Virus record (IMG/VR): IMGVR_UViG_3300009030_000015
Span: 1-26,842 of that record
Source: a virus
Strand: one strand, 5' to 3'
Length of the DNA: 26,842 nt
In this document: one piece after another, positions 3,440-11,596 of the stretch
Layout of the letters: the number at the start of each line of letters is the position of its first letter
Numbering within the stretch: position 1 is the stretch's first letter
The notes under the pieces: generated by a model
What the model was told of the DNA's origin: nothing
What the model saw: only the letters and a program-made list of their open reading frames with translations
The model's database searches: none
Made by a program: the position numbers and the translations under genes

Positions 3440-3706
3440 TCAATCCTGATTCACATAGGCGGCAGTTGCGCCGCCTTCTTCATCAACTAACTTAATGTAC
3501 TCATCAAGGGCATGGCGAGCTTTCTTTAAGTCCTCCACCCCGCCCTTCAATTTCCAACGCTCCACCCACTTGGTGATAATATACTGGAAGCAGTCGAACT
3601 GCATACGGTACGCCCTTGTCCAGTGCTGCTCGCCACCATCTTTTCTCTGGTAGTGGCTTCCCCCTACCTGTTCAGTGTGTTGGAGTGGTAATGATTGTTG
3701 GTTCAT
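3440..3706 (-). CDS. DUF3310 family protein (T7 gp1.7-like nucleotide kinase family)
   Basis: 88 residues. The DUF3310 signature is clear: VGGSHYQ at 14-20, then Q-Y-I-I-T-K-W-V-E-R-W around 41-51 and KGGVEDLKKARHALDEYI at 54-71. Members of this family include T7 gene 1.7, reported as a dGMP/dTMP kinase without a normal P-loop. The start ATG at 3706 has GGGGATAAAGG directly before it and overlaps the HD-domain gene by 35 bases, so the two are translationally coupled. As last gene of the base-modification string it would suit phosphorylation of dTMP or a modified dUMP analogue, but that is inference; many DUF3310 proteins have no proven activity. Confidence 0.85.
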   Translation of the reverse strand: MNQQSLPLQHTEQVGGSHYQRKDGGEQHWTRAYRMQFDCFQYIITKWVERWKLKGGVEDLKKARHALDEYIKLVDEEGGATAAYVNQD

Positions 3707-4229
3707 CCTTTATCCCCAGAGTTGCCTTTAATCCACTACATATATCCATTACGTTTCCCGCTACCTTACCCTGTAATGGTAGCTTAGACAGGTAATGAAT
3801 GCCATTGATAAATATGGGCATGAATGTCACATTACCCAAAGTAATCTCCTCTACACACTTAAAACAGAGGTCAAGCATATCAGCGGCCTTAAGAACTAGC
3901 AGGTCATCCCCTACAAGCTCGGGTATCTTATATCCAGTTTGCGTTGCCCAATTTTTTTCTACCTTCTTTATCATGTCGTTAAAATTTGGGTCAATCCACT
4001 TAGCGGGGGCGGGGATATCTCCAGTCCACTGCTCAGGTATATCGTGTTTGAGCGCAGCTATTATGATTTCCTTACTAGCCTCTCCATCTGTAAGTATATC
4101 ACAGATAAGCGCAACGTTCGCTGAATGATGACCTACGGTTTCCTCTACTATAGTTGGAAGAGTATGGAACCGCTTAACTAAGAACCCGACTCTTGGGATG
4201 ATGGTCGCCTTTCTGTCCACTCCTGACAT
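3672..4229 (-). CDS. HD-domain phosphohydrolase, YfbR-like 5'-deoxynucleotidase
   Basis: 185 residues. HD-superfamily metal ligands are visible: GHHS at 33-36, KHDIPE at 61-66 and the YfbR-type TGDIPAPAKW at 69-78, with a late Asp in AADMLDL at 115-121. YfbR proteins cleave dNMPs to deoxynucleosides and phosphate; length (about 190-200 aa) fits. It overlaps the TS-homologue gene by 52 bases and the DUF3310 gene by 35 bases, and starts after GGAGAAAGG. In this setting it could adjust dNMP pools, for example by removing an unwanted pyrimidine nucleotide competing with a modified one. That role is inferred; the family assignment is from motif recognition. Confidence 0.82.
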   Translation of the reverse strand: MSGVDRKATIIPRVGFLVKRFHTLPTIVEETVGHHSANVALICDILTDGEASKEIIIAALKHDIPEQWTGDIPAPAKWIDPNFNDMIKKVEKNWATQTGYKIPELVGDDLLVLKAADMLDLCFKCVEEITLGNVTFMPIFINGIHYLSKLPLQGKVAGNVMDICSGLKATLGIKDEPTIITTPTH

Positions 4230-5134
4230 GCCTTTCTCCAGTCTGTTGCTACAATGTATCCTATTTGTCCTTTACGGATATGCTTATTAAGATATGCGTC
4301 GTGTATAGGGTCAGCTACGTCCACTATCCAGGGGCTAGTGAATGGTAGTCCCATAACAAAGTTTTCTACGTCTTGTAAAAACAGGAGTGCTTCCTCTGCT
4401 GACTTAAACATACGAAGCGGCTTGACTTCACCTGCTGCATAGGGGTCGAAGACAGGGGTGCGCTTTAGTAGTTCGCTATGGAGGTCGGTATATAAGTGCA
4501 GGTTATTCGTCATGACATAGTAGTTACCGAGCCTCTGGTTTGTCATGGCAGCCATCCATTCCTGTAGCATGGTCATGTGAACAGCATTCGCCCCAGTCAT
4601 CCCCCACACGGCGTCATTACTCCTGTTACAGACAGTCATATGCAAGTAACTGTCTACTATCCTCCAATAGATGTGAGTATTGCAGGGTATATCCTTTTTG
4701 TAAAAGAGGTCACACTTGGCGTCCCACATCGCTGTAACTGCTCGGCGAGTATGAGGGTCTTTATTAAGCTGGTTTGCTGTCTGTAGAAGTTGGTCTATAC
4801 TGAAGTGCTTACGCCAGCGATAGCCATAGGCTCCGTAAATAGTGCCGTCATTTTCGGCGTACTCCCTAAGACCTGAGTTAAACTGTTCAATCCACTTAAC
4901 GTCCTTCCGCCCCGCCATCATCCAGCAGAACTCCATTACGTGGAAGAAGGGGTTAGCATCCCGTAGCGGGTCAAACAGCACACGTTCGTCAGGTCGATGT
5001 ACCTTGAATATACAAGGTTCTATCATAGTCACTACATTACCGTTCCTAGAGGTTTGCTTGTCCCCACAAACCCCGAGCAGCCACATGGCTTCCGTGAAAA
5101 AATTAGGGATATTCCTTACGCTTCTATTTTCCAT
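4178..5134 (-). CDS. Thymidylate synthase homologue, predicted dUMP hydroxymethylase-type enzyme
   Basis: 318 residues with the thymidylate synthase fold signatures in order: YGAYGYRWR (100-108), HTRRAVTAMWD (128-138), the catalytic segment IPCNTHIYWR with Cys151, CNRSNDAVWGMTGANAVHM (169-187) and the late NNLHLYTDLH (210-219). The Asn of GAN (183) stands where TS and dUMP-acting enzymes have Asn and dCMP hydroxymethylases have Asp, suggesting dUMP as substrate. The usual TS motif GxPFN is altered to GMTGAN and the His after the catalytic Cys is Asn; these changes are common in phage TS-like hydroxymethylases and make simple dTMP synthesis less certain. It would use methylene-tetrahydrofolate to give dTMP or 5-hydroxymethyl-dUMP. 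Start ATG at 5134 follows AAGAGGAAG. It overlaps genes on both sides within the modification operon. Confidence 0.82.
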   Translation of the reverse strand: MENRSVRNIPNFFTEAMWLLGVCGDKQTSRNGNVVTMIEPCIFKVHRPDERVLFDPLRDANPFFHVMEFCWMMAGRKDVKWIEQFNSGLREYAENDGTIYGAYGYRWRKHFSIDQLLQTANQLNKDPHTRRAVTAMWDAKCDLFYKKDIPCNTHIYWRIVDSYLHMTVCNRSNDAVWGMTGANAVHMTMLQEWMAAMTNQRLGNYYVMTNNLHLYTDLHSELLKRTPVFDPYAAGEVKPLRMFKSAEEALLFLQDVENFVMGLPFTSPWIVDVADPIHDAYLNKHIRKGQIGYIVATDWRKACQEWTERRPSSQESGS

Positions 5135-5984
5135 TGTACTTCCTCTTACTACGGCCAGCTCCAGTGCTGACTCTCATGTACTTATCAAACTCGCACAGGC
5201 AGTTCTGGAAATCTTGCATACACAGTAGCATCACGTGACCCTTAAGCATTTCCCAAGCGAGGGTTATGTAGTGATTAAACCTTTTCGGGGACACCTTACC
5301 AAACTTGTCATCATAGAAAAACCAATTTAACCCTCTTATACTACCCGGTCCGGGAGCAGACCACGAGTACCAATCCTCCGCCCCCTCCAGAGGGTGGTCA
5401 ATAGTGTTCTTTAAGTCGGCGACAACCTGCGCTGCCATGAAGGAAGCGAACCCCTGATACTGCATTATGAGCTTGTGTGCGGCGGCGAGGGTGCTGTTAG
5501 GGGCAACGTGCGGGGGGTTAGCGAAAGCTGCTCCTAGGGCTTGTGAGCAGTACTCACCCTTGTCCATACGCTTACCGCACGTTGTTACCACGTAGGCATT
5601 TCCCCATACCTTCTCTCCGCTTTCCCGTATTGAGTTGATAGTTGATATTAGTCGGCCATAAACAATTTTCTCTTCTAACTTAGTAGAGAAAGCAATAAGA
5701 TCCATAGCTTTTAATGTCGGCGGCCAGTTGAACATACGGGCGACCATCATACGCCACTCGTGCAGCCCATCCTCTTGGTAGGGTATGTTGTTTCTAATCC
5801 ACTGAGTTACCTTGTCATCTTCGCGGTGTACGTTGCAGAAGTAGACGGTTTGTAGGGTGGGGTCCTCAGTCCAAGGCTTGGACATACCCCCTCTTTTTCT
5901 TGTGCGAATATGCTCTCGCTCATTAATCCAGAATACTAACTTTTCCTGCACTGGCGAAAGCTTGCTTCCATTGGACTCTAACAT
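5124..5984 (-). CDS. Helical DNA base hypermodification protein (HMUDK_hel / aGPT-PPlase-like family)
   Basis: 286 residues from ATG 5984 (AAAGGAG at 7-base spacing; a GTG at 6002 is an alternative). It shows the order of motifs of the all-helical family linked to phage 5-hydroxymethyluracil hypermodification: NEREHIR (21-27), PWTEDP (37-42), FCNVHREDDKVTQWI (49-63), WGNAY (127-131), GFASFMAAQVVADLK (178-192) and APGPGSIRGLN (210-220). In known phages the family occurs fused to a P-loop kinase acting on hmU in DNA, or alone as an amino-acid:DNA transferase-like enzyme. No Walker A is present here, so it is the stand-alone helical form; its reaction cannot be told from sequence. It overlaps the glycosyltransferase gene by 62 bases and the TS homologue by 11. 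Family call is from memory of motifs and should be tested by profile search. Confidence 0.72.
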   Translation of the reverse strand: MLESNGSKLSPVQEKLVFWINEREHIRTRKRGGMSKPWTEDPTLQTVYFCNVHREDDKVTQWIRNNIPYQEDGLHEWRMMVARMFNWPPTLKAMDLIAFSTKLEEKIVYGRLISTINSIRESGEKVWGNAYVVTTCGKRMDKGEYCSQALGAAFANPPHVAPNSTLAAAHKLIMQYQGFASFMAAQVVADLKNTIDHPLEGAEDWYSWSAPGPGSIRGLNWFFYDDKFGKVSPKRFNHYITLAWEMLKGHVMLLCMQDFQNCLCEFDKYMRVSTGAGRSKRKYNGK

Positions 5985-6696
5985 CTTTGCGCTCCTTTCC
6001 ACCCCAAGAAGTCTTGGTCTTCTTGGTAACTACGGTAACGAATCCAGGGTGCAGTTCGGCCAAGCCCATCGCTGCCTGCTCCTGGATTTCTGGGGTACGG
6101 TAGGTTGAGCAGCCTCCGCTAACATCACTTCCAGCTTGGTTGTTCACCCATCTATTCAGTAATACGTTTTCATACCCGAGCCGCATAAGCTGGAGGGTGG
6201 CATCAAAGTCCTCCATTACGGGTATTCGGTCAAAGCGTATATTCTCTTCCCGTAGTACGTCAAACCTGAACCCTAGTACGCGCATCATACGAGTACAGTA
6301 TCTGTATGGCTCTATAACCCTGTTCGCCCCTTCCCTCGGGGCTACCCCGACGGCTGCGTATATGTTGAGGAAGGTTACTATTTCCTTCAGCATAGCCTCT
6401 ATGTCACTTGTTGTGGAGGGCACGAACTTGGTAGGTTGGTCTTCACGCCGCGTGGCGAATACAAGGTCGTCATCAAACATAATAACTTTCTTTTCAAATA
6501 TGTGGTCAACTAGCCACTGGCGGGTAGGACCGATTGTTTGGATATTCGGTGGAAGAACGAGAGTTGGGTAAGGACGGTACAGGTCTTTTTCTTTGTCCTG
6601 AACCACAAGAGTTGTTATCTCTTTTATATCTTGTGGCAAGCTGTTCCAGGTCGTCTGCTTATTAGCACGTCCGTACGTGCATATCAGTACCTTCAT
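5923..6696 (-). CDS. GT-A type glycosyltransferase, TET-associated glycosyltransferase (TAGT)-like
   Basis: 257 residues from ATG 6696, where the product begins MKVLICTYGR, as expected for a GT-A first beta strand; an upstream in-frame ATG at 6744 would add 16 residues but has a poor ribosome site. Visible features: QTIGPTRQWLVD (53-64), the metal-binding DDD at 75-77 in VIMFDDDLVFATRR, VMEDFDATLQLMRLGY (160-175), GGCSTYRT (194-201), LHPGFVTVV (215-223) and a C-terminal DVRVQWKQA. This order fits the TAGT family, predicted to transfer a sugar to hydroxymethylated bases in phage DNA. No TET/JBP dioxygenase is found in the window; the hydroxymethyl group would instead come from the TS homologue downstream. 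Donor sugar and base are unknown. First gene of the overlapping modification string. Confidence 0.78.
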   Translation of the reverse strand: MKVLICTYGRANKQTTWNSLPQDIKEITTLVVQDKEKDLYRPYPTLVLPPNIQTIGPTRQWLVDHIFEKKVIMFDDDLVFATRREDQPTKFVPSTTSDIEAMLKEIVTFLNIYAAVGVAPREGANRVIEPYRYCTRMMRVLGFRFDVLREENIRFDRIPVMEDFDATLQLMRLGYENVLLNRWVNNQAGSDVSGGCSTYRTPEIQEQAAMGLAELHPGFVTVVTKKTKTSWGGKERKDVRVQWKQAFASAGKVSILD

Positions 6697-7163: not shown

Positions 7164-7433
7164 GGGCGAGGGTAAGATTTTAGCAACTTCACCATTATCA
7201 AGTACCATTCCATATGAGAAGTGCTCGGGGATAAGTCCTAGAAATTCACCCAGCTCTATATCTACCTCGAATATAAAAGTTTCGTGGTTAATGTCTGCAC
7301 CATTGCTCACCATAAAGTCCTTTCCCTCCGCACTTATGGCTTCCACATATACATCTTCTTCGTCTGCCCACATCAATAGGTCTAACCCCTTCTTTTCAAC
7401 TGGCGGAGAAGTTGCTAAAAGTTCATTTATCAC
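7155..7433 (-). CDS. Acidic protein of unknown function, 92 aa
   Basis: Starts with GTG at 7433, chosen because a strong GGAGG lies 6 bases upstream inside the end of the helicase gene (overlap 11 bases). The product is acidic, mainly beta and helix by eye (DLLMWADEEDVYVEAIS, TFIFEVDIELGEFLGLIPEHF), with no Cys, no membrane segment and no motif that I recognise. Its last codons overlap the -35 box of the next promoter. Being coupled to the SNF2 helicase, it may act with it, but nothing more can be said. Confidence 0.7.
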   Translation of the reverse strand: MINELLATSPPVEKKGLDLLMWADEEDVYVEAISAEGKDFMVSNGADINHETFIFEVDIELGEFLGLIPEHFSYGMVLDNGEVAKILPSPLH

Positions 7434-8805
7434 TTAGTGCCTCCAATAATCGCTTTTGACTACGTTCCTTTCCCTGGAGCACTTGTATTACTTTTTCATC
7501 AAGTGTGCCAGCACACACTATATGGTACACCATGACCGTTTCCGCTGCCTGCCCCTGCCGCCAGACTCGCCCGATAAGTTGTTCATAATATTCGAAATTC
7601 CAAGGTATACCAAAGAATATAACAGTAGAGCAAGCAGCTTGGAGGTTCAACCCATGCCCCATGCTGGCGGGATGACCTATTAGCATGTCAACCTCGCCCC
7701 TGTTAAATGCTTCAATGATCTCGCTACCCTTCTTGGCTGATGTACCCCCGCCGATAACACTGGCGTTAGGGAAAACTTCAAGTATACGCTCAACGTCATG
7801 GCGGAATTCGTAGGCCACTATGACCGGTCCTTCTATCTCTTCTATTAAGTCTTTCAAAGCTTCAATCTTAGTGTCATGTATTACTTCGTATTCTCGCTTA
7901 CTACTCTTAGGAACCTCTCCTGTTTCGATATACACCGCGCCGTTCGCAATCTGGCGGCACTTAGTCCCTGCGGCTGCGGCGTTCTGGGCGACAATAACCC
8001 CTTCCTCGACTCTAGCAATAAAATCATCTTCAACCTGTTCATATATCCCCCTAGCATAGTCTGGAAGACTAACTACTGTATTGACCCGTATTAGTTCGGG
8101 CATCTGTAGGTGGTCTTCAGTATTTATTTGAATAACTAATGGGTCTATTCGTTCCACAATATCAGCAAATGCCCAGTCATGGGGTACATATTCATACTGT
8201 TTTCCATACGGGTTTGGTTGATAGAAATACTTATTTCGAAAGTGCGTGATGTATCGTCCCAAGGAGTTACCGTCATCAAGAATGTATATTTGGGAGAACA
8301 AATCCATAATTCCCCGAGGTTGTGGAGAGCCTGTAAGAATCCATCGTCTCTTGAAGTAGGGAATTCGCTTACGGAGTAACTTAAAGCGTTTTGATTGAGA
8401 GTTTTTGAATCTAGTGCTCTCATCAACACAGAGGATATCGTATCGCTCTGGGTCAAAACGCTTAAATTTTGGGTCAAACAACCAAAGAAGTCCCTCTGGG
8501 TTAATGATGTAAATGTCAGCATCATTGGAAAGACCGGTTTCCTTATCTCCGTGGATAATGCTATAAGTGATTCCATGAAATGTACTCCACTTTTCTATTT
8601 CTTGCGGCCAGACATTATACATCGGGCGCAACGGGGCTATCAATAGCATTTTACTGATTAGTCCCTTACTTTTAAGAATCTTAAATGCGGCAAGAACTGT
8701 ACTAGTCTTTCCAAGTCCGGGCTTCATAAACAGGCCGAGGGCAGCCTGTTGCATCATTAAGCTAATCGCCCTTACTTGGTAAGAATGTGGGTTCCATTCT
8801 GCCAT
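7423..8805 (-). CDS. SNF2/SF2-family DNA helicase
   Basis: 460 residues. Helicase motifs in order: SYQVRAI (Q-motif region, 8-14), motif I KPGLGKT (28-34), motif Ia LLIAPLRPMYNVW (54-66), motif II VDES (127-130) in place of the usual DEAH, motif III LTGSPQPRG (157-165), then a C-terminal RecA-like domain with HPASMGHGLNLQ and motif VI QLIGRVWRQGQ (409-419). This is the compact SNF2 form common in phages, which would remodel or unwind DNA during replication or recombination. The ATG at 8805 follows AAAGGTATATAG and the gene overlaps VRR-NUC by 44 bases. The adjacent nucleases suggest a joint role in branched DNA processing. Confidence 0.93.
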   Translation of the reverse strand: MAEWNPHSYQVRAISLMMQQAALGLFMKPGLGKTSTVLAAFKILKSKGLISKMLLIAPLRPMYNVWPQEIEKWSTFHGITYSIIHGDKETGLSNDADIYIINPEGLLWLFDPKFKRFDPERYDILCVDESTRFKNSQSKRFKLLRKRIPYFKRRWILTGSPQPRGIMDLFSQIYILDDGNSLGRYITHFRNKYFYQPNPYGKQYEYVPHDWAFADIVERIDPLVIQINTEDHLQMPELIRVNTVVSLPDYARGIYEQVEDDFIARVEEGVIVAQNAAAAGTKCRQIANGAVYIETGEVPKSSKREYEVIHDTKIEALKDLIEEIEGPVIVAYEFRHDVERILEVFPNASVIGGGTSAKKGSEIIEAFNRGEVDMLIGHPASMGHGLNLQAACSTVIFFGIPWNFEYYEQLIGRVWRQGQAAETVMVYHIVCAGTLDEKVIQVLQGKERSQKRLLEALSDK

Positions 8806-9076
8806 CTATATACCTTTGTCCATCAAACCTATTATCAATTACGAATACCTTATGTCCTACCTTAGCCAACTCTTCACACCTATATACCTGTAGCGGTCTA
8901 AGTGGCTCCCCCTCAGCCTTAAACTCTACATACTCATGTCCTCGTGGGGGCGACCACGCAAAGATGCGGTCAGGCCAGCCTGTGGAGGCTAGGTTACTCA
9001 GCTTATGCTGAATGCACTGTGCTCCATCAACTACCCATCGCTCTAACTTACTCTCTTCCCTTATCCCACGGGACAT
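8762..9076 (-). CDS. VRR-NUC domain nuclease
   Basis: 104 residues forming a minimal stand-alone VRR-NUC domain: an N-terminal helix beginning EESKLERW with an acidic residue, then G-W-P-D-R (33-37), YVEFKAEG (49-56) with the catalytic E51-x-K53 pair, Gln63 in LRPLQVYR, and HKVFVID (75-81). VRR-NUC proteins of phages and FAN1 are structure-specific nucleases; stand-alone phage forms are thought to act as Holliday-junction resolvase-like dimers. It overlaps the SNF2 gene downstream (44 bases) and the PD-(D/E)XK gene upstream (16 bases). Ribosome site AAGGGGGG lies before the ATG. Confidence 0.9.
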   Translation of the reverse strand: MSRGIREESKLERWVVDGAQCIQHKLSNLASTGWPDRIFAWSPPRGHEYVEFKAEGEPLRPLQVYRCEELAKVGHKVFVIDNRFDGQRYIDGRMEPTFLPSKGD

Positions 9077-9846
9077 TGACCCCCCTTGAACCTGCTATGT
9101 GGACACCACCTACAGTGAGCTCCAGGATTCGGTATGTATGTATCGGGGCAATCCATGAATGTAGCCTTATGTCGCCACCCGGCTTTCGCTAACTTGTGGG
9201 CGTCAAAGCTGTCCTTAGACCCACGACCACCAGGATACATCATTGGTACATTCTTTTTCTGGTCAAAGTAAACCGTTGTCACTTGATAGTTATCGTAACC
9301 CGGTTCATCTTCAATAGAGGCTGTGTTGTAGAGCCGTCGCTGCCACTTGTGGTCAGGGTATATGCGCCCAGTCTTCCACTCCTGTATATCTATATCACGG
9401 TCAACTTTCCGTTTAGGAATAAGCTTTAGGTCAAATAGACCGCGCCATGTAGCTGATGGGTCGTTAAAGTCTACTGCTGTCCATGTATCGTTCATGTCTA
9501 TCCTGAATGCCCACTTGTACTCTGGGTAGCAGTCATAGTCTTGTCGCAGCCCCCACATCCACTGCTTATAGTTGACAAGGTCAGGGTGTAGGTGGTCGCT
9601 GCCCTTAAAGAAGTTCTCGATTGAGTCATGTACCTCATTACCTCTTACCAGTGCTGGTCCAGGGTCTTCTGGCTTAACCTCGTGCTTCCACACTTTATTC
9701 GCAGCAAATTGGTATCCACACTTAGAGTGGGATATAAACTGGGAGTATGACTTTGGTCCAGTTGGAACTAAGTTAGTCATATCTATGTGGTAGCTAGACC
9801 TCTTTGCAAGGTGGTCCTGCCACGAGCCTTGTACTATGTCAGTCAT
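9061..9846 (-). CDS. PD-(D/E)XK nuclease with probable Fe-S cluster (RecB/Cas4-like exonuclease)
   Basis: 261 residues. Nuclease core: RGNEVHDSIENFF (68-80) with His73, GLFDLKLI (136-143) with Asp139, IQEWKTGRI (154-162) with Glu156-x-Lys158, and QRRLYN (169-174). Four cysteines are spaced as in Cas4 and AddB: Cys43 near the N-terminus (HSKCGYQF) and Cys245, Cys248 and Cys258 at the C-terminus (CRWC...GGQC), suggesting a 4Fe-4S cluster that pins the ends together. This predicts an exonuclease acting on single-stranded or resected ends in phage recombination or host DNA breakdown. No CRISPR genes are nearby, so a Cas4 role is unlikely. It overlaps the polymerase gene by 8 bases and follows AAAGGAATATAAAG. 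Confidence 0.88.
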   Translation of the reverse strand: MTDIVQGSWQDHLAKRSSYHIDMTNLVPTGPKSYSQFISHSKCGYQFAANKVWKHEVKPEDPGPALVRGNEVHDSIENFFKGSDHLHPDLVNYKQWMWGLRQDYDCYPEYKWAFRIDMNDTWTAVDFNDPSATWRGLFDLKLIPKRKVDRDIDIQEWKTGRIYPDHKWQRRLYNTASIEDEPGYDNYQVTTVYFDQKKNVPMMYPGGRGSKDSFDAHKLAKAGWRHKATFMDCPDTYIPNPGAHCRWCPHSRFKGGQCPVG

Positions 9847-11596
9847 CTTTATATTCCTTTAGGTCGTGCCAGTTATCACCGACCAAGCCCTCGCTTGCCA
9901 TCGGTACGTCAAAAAAGTCTTGGTCCATAGCATTCTTCAACTGCTGCATACCCTCAGGTATATCATCAGCTGGAACGCTTATGTTAATCTCATCGTGTAC
10001 AGTCGCCATAAATATATCTTGGGGACGCTTATATTCGTAGTACCAGTCAGCACAGCATTGTTTCGTTTGGTCGGCTGCGCTACCCTGAATTAGATAGTTA
10101 GTCAGCTTATAGGCTTTATCACGAGATTCAGCATAGTAATGGCGTCCTCCCCATGTAGTGATATGCTTCCCTGCTCTGCCCCGCGCAGATACATTATCCA
10201 TAAGGGTTTTGATTCCGGGCATAGCACCGAGATAATGTGCTTTGAGGGCTGCACCTTCGGGGATACTAAGTCCCAAAGCTCCGGCGATAGCTGGTGCGCC
10301 TCCTCCATATATAATACGGAAGCCGGTAATTTTGACATCCTTCCTTGATAGCTCAACACCATATAGTTCCTTAATCATTTCCTGCGCCCGACCATGTGGG
10401 TCTAACCGGGGGTTGTCTTTATACGCTTGCATCAGGCTACCGTCTTCATAGTGCGCTCCTATGCGGAGTTCCTGACCACTAAAATCCCTCATTGCCCAGA
10501 CATGGCCTTCCTCCGGAAGTAGGTACTTACGAATATAGGGAGGGTCAGGTAGGGCGGCTATATGTGGGACGTCAAACCGAACCATTACGTTTTGAAGATT
10601 AGGGTTGTCGCTAGATAACCGACCAGTCCTAGTACCTTTTCTTCTTTCCGTATCCCTAACCTGATTCCAGTTGGGATGCAGCCGCCCGTCAGCTCTACAT
10701 TTGTCCACCCAAGGACGCATAAAAGTCTGTAGAATAGTAGCGGTGACGCCTTTATACTGAAGCAGGGCAAGAATATATGGGTCTTTGATAACCTTGATAA
10801 TGTTATCTTTAGCAGTTGACCGCTGCCCGGATTTTGGTGTAAGTATCCATTCCTCAGGGTTGACAATTCCTGCGGATTCGAGGGCGTTACATAGAGTCGC
10901 CCCCTTGAGTAAGTCAGGGTCGCCATTGTATTGTAGCACTCCAGCAATTAAGTCATCACATAACTTTTGAGCACCGTTGTAGAGCTCTAAGTCTTGTTCT
11001 AATTCTTCTTGGTCAACCCGAATACCGCGCTCTGTAGCCTCATAAAAGAGGGGCATACACCGACGTTCCCGGTTGTACGCCCCATTCGGCTGCTCTTGTA
11101 TCAGGAGGTCGTAGAGTTCTTTTGTCCGTATAACGTCGCCTTCCGCATATGGTTTAACAAGCTCAAATGGAGCGCGGCAAATATAAGCCCCCCAATCTTT
11201 TGGGGTCGCCTCTGGGACGTTGGCAAGTATCCAAGCGCGTAGATGGTCTTGTTCTGTAGGAGGAAGATCCAAGTACCTTTCGGCAGATGGTTTAAGGCTA
11301 AGAGTCTTAGCATACGGGTCGGCAAGATATACCAGATACTGGGTATCGTGTATACGGCTCCATTCAGGCATTGGCAAATCAAGATACTTTTTCGCCACAG
11401 CAAGGTCAAACGGAGCATTATGAAAGAGAAGTTCGTCACCACTATTCCATATTCGTTCAAGTATGGGTCGGCCAACCTCAATAGGAAAATACTCTGGCTT
11501 AGTGGTCGCGCTGTATATGGCGACGCCAACCGGACGCGGCGGTTTGATAATTGTGTTCCCATCTATTGCCTCAGTTTCAAAGTCAATTGTCCACAC
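9839..11596 (-). CDS. DNA polymerase, family A, with 3'-5' proofreading domain
   Basis: 585 residues. Proofreading motifs: ExoI DFETEA (5-10), ExoII HNAPFDLAV (59-67), ExoIII YAEGDVIRT (150-158). Polymerase motifs: TGRLSSDNPNLQN (324-336), motif A RDFSGQELR (370-378) with Asp371, motif B R418-x3-K422-x3-F426-x3-Y430 and motif C TVHDE (532-536). The motif B Phe426 corresponds to E. coli Phe762, so dideoxynucleotide discrimination should be like Pol I rather than T7. No 5'-3' exonuclease domain. Start is GTG at 11596 with AAGGGG at 6-base spacing. The frame stays open another 46 codons upstream without a normal start codon. This is the replicative polymerase of the phage; it would have to accept modified dUTP if base replacement occurs. 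Confidence 0.96.
   Translation of the reverse strand: MWTIDFETEAIDGNTIIKPPRPVGVAIYSATTKPEYFPIEVGRPILERIWNSGDELLFHNAPFDLAVAKKYLDLPMPEWSRIHDTQYLVYLADPYAKTLSLKPSAERYLDLPPTEQDHLRAWILANVPEATPKDWGAYICRAPFELVKPYAEGDVIRTKELYDLLIQEQPNGAYNRERRCMPLFYEATERGIRVDQEELEQDLELYNGAQKLCDDLIAGVLQYNGDPDLLKGATLCNALESAGIVNPEEWILTPKSGQRSTAKDNIIKVIKDPYILALLQYKGVTATILQTFMRPWVDKCRADGRLHPNWNQVRDTERRKGTRTGRLSSDNPNLQNVMVRFDVPHIAALPDPPYIRKYLLPEEGHVWAMRDFSGQELRIGAHYEDGSLMQAYKDNPRLDPHGRAQEMIKELYGVELSRKDVKITGFRIIYGGGAPAIAGALGLSIPEGAALKAHYLGAMPGIKTLMDNVSARGRAGKHITTWGGRHYYAESRDKAYKLTNYLIQGSAADQTKQCCADWYYEYKRPQDIFMATVHDEINISVPADDIPEGMQQLKNAMDQDFFDVPMASEGLVGDNWHDLKEYKDD

Follow-up and report, generated by a model that had tools for sequence, protein, structure and literature searches.

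The hydroxyls of base J arise by TET/JBP oxidation of thymine in DNA. Phages M6 and ViI carry a thymidylate synthase (TS) homologue and the helical protein HMUDK_hel together with a P-loop kinase and an amino acid:DNA transferase (ADDT). The T6 enzyme has been assigned to the glycosyltransferase (GT) family TAGT/PF20691, which is present in T6 and hundreds of T-even relatives (PMC13390438, PMC13216743), and a 2026 study counted 288 of 753 phage genomes in which TAGT occurs with neither alpha-GT nor beta-GT, leaving its function open (PMC13216743). For HTVC023P-type pelagiphages, a 2022 paper lists TS, aG/PT-PPlase1, a 5'-deoxynucleotidase and a 'beta-glucosyl-HMC-alpha-glucosyltransferase' (PMC9599517). 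Here we analyse a cassette of overlapping genes for TAGT, HMUDK_hel and a TS homologue on a 26,842-bp stretch of viral DNA (the window), which is the whole IMG/VR record IMGVR_UViG_3300009030_000015 (GC content 47%).

A sequence-only reading of this DNA had placed the three genes on the minus strand and named their families. The open reading frames (ORFs) were found where it had put them, and profile searches matched PF00303, PF18723 and PF20691, all far above curated cut-offs, so that HMUDK_hel and TAGT fall in the expected families and not in unrelated ones. HMUDK_hel reached 130 bits against PF18723 (cut-off 25; profile positions 3-276 of 281) and TAGT 76 bits against PF20691 (cut-off 27.5). 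The motifs quoted for both proteins lie in conserved columns: R29, P43-W44, G218-P219-G220 and G224 in HMUDK_hel, in which 24 columns do not vary among 13 sequences (M6 and ViI among them), and the DDD motif (D91-D93) in TAGT, which is invariant in its relatives, the family alignment beginning at residue 17. Two statements of the sequence-only reading had to be given up. TAGTs had been described as known mainly beside TET dioxygenases; because the T6 enzyme belongs to TAGT/PF20691, TAGT is not primarily a TET partner. A stand-alone HMUDK_hel had been presented as unusual, and it is also a separate protein in M6 (gp055) and ViI (Vi01_130c). The cassette also extends past the span first described, since an overlapping HD 5'-deoxynucleotidase-like gene, found at the same position in M6 (gp059) and in phage MW202897, is part of it.

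IMG/VR was scanned with a TAGT alignment and, independently, with an alignment of the P-loop 5-hydroxymethyl-deoxyuridine (5-hmdU) DNA kinase; the best 80 loci were kept from each scan, and clustering of the query proteins at 80% identity gave 46 TAGT clusters and 59 kinase clusters. HMUDK_hel and TS were each present in 45 of the 46 TAGT clusters, which contained neither the kinase nor ADDT (0/46 for both). The kinase clusters carried HMUDK_hel in 50/59 and ADDT in 20/59 cases, and TAGT in none (0/59); for the ADDT difference Fisher's test gave p 2e-6. The positive counts are lower bounds because contig ends cut some loci. A third IMG/VR scan used HMUDK_hel itself as query. Pooled with the other scans it yielded 93 clusters, with TAGT as the partner of HMUDK_hel in 58, a divergent phrog_842-type GT-A in 23, a GT-B-like protein in five, the kinase in four and an unassigned protein in three, proportions that are not a census because the scans return the relatives nearest to the queries.

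The gene order helicase-TAGT-HMUDK_hel-TS-HD is shared by the window and many contigs. Contigs L006/L007, L080/L081, L279 and L280 show the order helicase-kinase-HMUDK_hel-TS-HD, the kinase occupying exactly the TAGT position in these syntenic genomes. On a quick HMUDK_hel tree, calculated without bootstraps and with ViI on a long branch, no fewer than 16 changes of partner class were counted with five labels, and no fewer than 11 with the labels kinase, GT-A and pooled GT-B-like plus unassigned. The kinase-type L052 protein was sister of the TAGT-type L094 protein (Shimodaira-Hasegawa-like approximate likelihood ratio test 96), and M6 and Sonora were nested among TAGT-type proteins (support 100). 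This suggests that partner proteins were swapped while HMUDK_hel stayed, and points to one DNA-handling partner serving several exchangeable enzymes. In phage SBSphiC, P-loop kinase and HMUDK_hel are fused in one 636-aa protein. As HMUDK_hel is fused to a kinase in one phage and stands beside a separate kinase or unrelated transferases elsewhere, it may have the task of recognising hmdU in DNA or of presenting it; most simply, it would be a shared substrate-handling partner for exchangeable enzymes.

Further occupants of this slot were observed. A protein of about 303 aa fills it in L104:7097-8020, L109:7100-8011 and L113:4594-5502; the L109 copy had no Pfam or PHROG match, and the AlphaFold2 model of the protein was poor (predicted local distance difference test score, pLDDT, 50). 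In L070:5635-7983, a FkbM-type methyltransferase, a GT-B-like protein and an HNH-like ORF precede HMUDK_hel and TAGT is absent; the methyltransferase may act on the sugar. The label GT-B-like derives from sub-cut-off Pfam matches for L011, L065 and L070 and from similarity to these for L088 and L066, and searching solved structures by profile gave no match. Two tandem P-loop kinase genes stand beside HMUDK_hel in L294, L295, L309, L318 and L352, three of which also carry ADDT. A pyrophosphorylated hmU (hydroxymethyluracil) intermediate has reportedly been seen in phiW-14, and tandem kinases could explain it. HMUDK_hel, TAGT and TS were also found on a contig binned as Patescibacteria (L356:6971-14275), and an archaeal bin holds a contig with HMUDK_hel and TS (L357:6953-12390); both are probably phage contigs inside bins of metagenome-assembled genomes.

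Absences within the window alone are weak evidence, because the record is probably a fragment of a genome of about 40 kb; they were hence checked in complete-looking relatives. The kinase model PF18748 matched nothing in the window and nothing in 46 of the 47 near-genome contigs; terminal repeats mark 11 of these 46. Its sole carrier among the 47, G030, lacks TAGT. Exact direct terminal repeats of 50-127 bp, indicating completeness, were present in 12 contigs, of which five are TAGT-type and five carry the divergent GT-A, with one unassigned protein and the G030 kinase making up the rest. In four complete-looking TAGT genomes no kinase model matched, and the Walker A proteins were a primase or terminase plus single ORFs matched by no model. 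The absence of the kinase from TAGT genomes is therefore not a fragment effect. It is an absence of a recognisable kinase, because PF18748 can miss divergent ones: in Montesquieu, where aGPT-PPlase2 (ADDT) is annotated and HMUDK_hel is present, there was no kinase match. The ADDT model (PF18724) had no match in the window either, and with kinase and ADDT both absent we rejected the possibility that a GT was merely added to the M6 pathway. A cultured example is Brevibacterium phage LuckyBarnes, which encodes on one strand DNA polymerase (gp45), TS (gp41), two TAGTs (gp40 and gp39) and HMUDK_hel (gp38), and in which no kinase was recognisable.

Alignment of 96 TS homologues, including those of M6, ViI, LuckyBarnes and MW202897, showed Cys, Asn and Asn at the positions of Cys151, Asn152 and Asn183 in all 96, which bears out the catalytic Cys and the dUMP-type Asn first noted in the window. 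Asn183 is the uracil-type residue under the rule that separates Asn from dCMP-type Asp at the 177 position, and E. coli TS has His147 where the cassette homologues carry Asn152 (PMC8670742). Because of this common signature, the protein resembles the dUMP hydroxymethylases of hmdU phages and not TS or dCMP hydroxymethylase; judged by these residues, it looks like a dUMP hydroxymethylase. An ordinary thymidylate synthase was rejected, as Asn152 replaces His147 in common with M6 and ViI and the protein scores far below the NCBIfam thymidylate synthase cut-offs. The dCMP-type Asp that goes with T-even glucosylation of hydroxymethylcytosine (hmC) was found in none of the 96, which led us to reject an hmC route. 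For LuckyBarnes a dCMP hydroxymethylase had been predicted in the announcement (PMC6588365); Asn at this position favours dUMP. Neither the window nor 12 more IMG/VR records nor two named phages gave a match to TET/JBP (PF12851), so that the reported lack of TET extends to complete-looking relatives and a TET-dependent route was rejected. The earlier suggestion that the hydroxymethyl group would be made at the nucleotide level is supported, and its other suggestion, decoration with a sugar, is likely.

With a probability of roughly 0.58, we propose that the cassette serves to produce sugar-bearing 5-hydroxymethyluracil in the phage DNA, with HMUDK_hel as partner of TAGT; we infer the chemistry, the succession of the steps and the role of HMUDK_hel as partner. 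Thymine would probably be replaced by hydroxymethyluracil, to which a sugar is then attached in DNA. The TS homologue, to go by its residues, would hydroxymethylate dUMP to hm-dUMP, and the HD nucleotidase, by analogy with DatZ-like enzymes, may deplete thymidine nucleotides, whereupon the phage polymerase would put hmdU into DNA. After replication, HMUDK_hel would engage hmdU in DNA and TAGT would move a sugar from a nucleotide-sugar onto the hydroxyl, a joint action suggested by the exchange with the kinase. The resulting glycosyloxymethyluracil would be similar to base J and would block host nucleases. Among phages of the kinase class (M6, ViI and SP10-like), the P-loop 5-hmdU DNA kinase would replace TAGT beside HMUDK_hel and phosphorylate the same hydroxyl, leading to amino-acid coupling by ADDT. 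More tentatively, and at somewhat short of even odds, HMUDK_hel would be a general module engaging hmdU in DNA, not a kinase domain, with exchanged transferases (P-loop kinase, GT-A TAGTs, GT-B-like) in a large class of environmental phages with diverse glycosylated hydroxymethyluracils, a counterpart of base J in bacterial viruses starting from nucleotide-level hmdU.

Further observations speak partly for and partly against HMUDK_hel as a partner of TAGT. Against it, no fusion of the two was seen. In its favour, distances of HMUDK_hel correlated modestly with those of TAGT (partial r 0.205, p 0.005) and not with those of TS (0.05, p 0.30), but the correlation with the helicase was as strong (0.265), so linkage may account for it. 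The AlphaFold2 model of HMUDK_hel (pLDDT 91) is essentially all helical. A Foldseek search against the PDB returned first the 5-PmdU glycinyltransferase PUGT (8z2n), then hOGG1, a helix-hairpin-helix (HhH) DNA glycosylase, and endonuclease III; PUGT and HhH glycosylases act on bases in DNA, which speaks for the partner role, but the likeness is weak (best E 0.15 and TM score 0.40; TM score about 0.3-0.4 over these matches). A viral structure library returned PhiW-14, RSL1 and SP10 proteins, and a search for sequence homologues in the PDB found none. Profile comparison with ADDT showed no homology (hhalign probability 1%), so a relation between HMUDK_hel and ADDT would be one of weak fold similarity only.

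HMUDK_hel may instead be an independent enzyme whose action on hmdU in DNA comes earlier or later than that of TAGT, giving two decorations, for instance a sugar together with a linker or an activated group. Its charged residues R60, E61, D63, K148, D210, E271 and K274 are invariant across all partner classes, which would suit an enzyme as well, and the weak likeness to PUGT and the further enzymes at some loci (radical SAM/SPASM and second GT-like proteins in L147 and L158; in L070 the FkbM methyltransferase, with a GT-B-like protein for TAGT) fit this explanation. We consider it unlikely, because in the kinase class HMUDK_hel stands beside the kinase or forms one protein with it, which argues for joint function, and because it stays constant while its partner swaps. 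Two successive decorations, as the sequence-only reading had implied, are less favoured, since HMUDK_hel has the GT as its partner where it would otherwise have the kinase, and TAGT clusters are devoid of ADDT.

TAGT might also suffice, HMUDK_hel being a regulator or a protector of hmdU-DNA, for example from host or self glycosylases, with no part in transfer. The complete circular phage MW202897 (L021:396-2694) has HD-TS-TAGT in the same order and no HMUDK_hel, and is thus a natural deletion control; contig L169 likewise has TAGT and no HMUDK_hel, and T6 TAGT acts on glucosyl-hmC without it (PMC13216743). The conservation of HMUDK_hel near TAGT in all but one of the 46 clusters, the overlap of the two genes and the fusion to a kinase in SBSphiC make this quite improbable. 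That the GT glycosylates another target (hmC, protein or cell surface) beside an ordinary thymidylate synthase is very improbable: TAGT is tied to DNA here only by family-level evidence and the LuckyBarnes authors predicted a dCMP hydroxymethylase, but the invariant Asn, the Cys-Asn shared with M6 and ViI in place of the Cys-His of E. coli TS, the low NCBIfam score and the strict clustering with HMUDK_hel all speak against it.

The cassette lies in a minus-strand block running from about 11.6 to 3.7 kb, with the transcription order family-A DNA polymerase, PD-(D/E)XK nuclease, SNF2-type helicase, two small ORFs, TAGT, HMUDK_hel, TS homologue and HD 5'-nucleotidase. Primase, terminase and portal on the plus strand identify a tailed phage. 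For TAGT, ATG 6696 is the preferred start, where its relatives also begin and where the earlier boundary stood; for HMUDK_hel it is ATG 5984, preceded by a GGAAAGGAG site. With the preferred start, TAGT runs about 62 nt into HMUDK_hel (80 nt if the longest ORF is taken); HMUDK_hel shares 11 nt with TS, and TS shares 52 nt with HD.

Coordinates of the cassette and its context genes in the window
Feature	Position	Strand	Evidence and remarks
Family-A DNA polymerase	9839..11596	-	PF00476 E 4e-45; context, same strand as cassette
PD-(D/E)XK nuclease	9061..9846	-	PF12705 E 7e-7; context, conserved synteny
SNF2-type helicase	7423..8805	-	PF00176 E 7e-16, phrog_62 E 3e-132; context, conserved synteny
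TAGT-family GT-A glycosyltransferase (DDD)	5923..6696	-	PF20691 E 4.7e-21, phrog_842 E 2.3e-51; ORF open from 6744
HMUDK_hel (aGPT-PPlase1-type), all-helical	5124..5984	-	PF18723 E 1.1e-37, phrog_2396 E 4e-46; ORF open from GTG 6002
Thymidylate synthase homologue, predicted dUMP hydroxymethylase (Cys151, Asn152, Asn183)	4178..5134	-	PF00303 E 1.2e-19, phrog_5131 E 7.4e-82
HD-domain YfbR-like 5'-deoxynucleotidase	3672..4229	-	PF12917 E 7.7e-17, phrog_7076 dATP triphosphohydrolase E 5e-15

The best NCBIfam model for the polymerase was the aminoadenine-incorporating DpoZ, well below its cut-off; the pairing with an HD protein that also matches a dATP triphosphohydrolase PHROG is reminiscent of Z-genome phages. 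Two plus-strand ORFs at 41-2643 had no Pfam match, and the second has local matches of 39-45% identity in several cassette-bearing contigs. A 30.6-kb contig (L002; IMGVR_UViG_3300020235_000165), whose cassette and polymerase proteins are 99.7-100% identical to those of the window, is probably the same virus. At L147:7177-9781 and L158:7195-9792, TAGT is separated from HMUDK_hel by a radical SAM/SPASM protein and a second GT-like protein lies upstream, the SPASM and radical SAM matches being confirmed for L147; these loci possibly represent an extended modification.

The combination of genes had been taken as unreported. HTVC023P-type pelagiphages share TS, HMUDK_hel, 5'-deoxynucleotidase and TAGT (under its phrog_842 name) with the window, in one region near PolA, and the available part of that paper suggests a broadened function and does not raise kinase/GT exclusion, partner exchange or an hmdU-glycoside (PMC9599517). 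The gene set and, from M6 and ViI, the stand-alone HMUDK_hel are thus already known. The new element is the pattern of kinase/TAGT exclusion and exchange, part of which may already stand in Iyer 2013, Lee 2018, Lee 2022 and Wen 2024. From this pattern, hmdU in DNA can be predicted as a concrete substrate of the TAGTs of this cassette, and their neighbour is nearly constant; HMUDK_hel, though named after a kinase, proves not to be tied to one. If the proposal is true, thymines carrying sugars would form a family in DNA, modification-dependent restriction would have new targets, and the two enzymes would be a pair able to write sugar marks onto hmU.

The predicted product, hydroxymethyluracil bearing a sugar within DNA, would be of the same class as base J of kinetoplastids, whose hydroxyl is made by TET/JBP; the window has no TET/JBP match. 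The SP10-like 5-hmdU DNA kinase of SBSphiC contains HMUDK_hel like the window and differs by its fusion to the P-loop kinase. T6 TAGT belongs to the same GT-A family (PF20691/phrog_842), but transfers a second glucose onto glucosyl-hmC beside alpha-GT (PMC13216743), whereas in the window TAGT is the only GT recognised and stands beside HMUDK_hel and a dUMP-type synthase. M6 and ViI share with the window the dUMP-type TS homologue with its Cys-Asn/Asn signature and HMUDK_hel, and M6 also has HD and PolA nearby; they differ in carrying the P-loop kinase PF18748 and ADDT PF18724, where the window and its complete-looking TAGT relatives carry TAGT instead.

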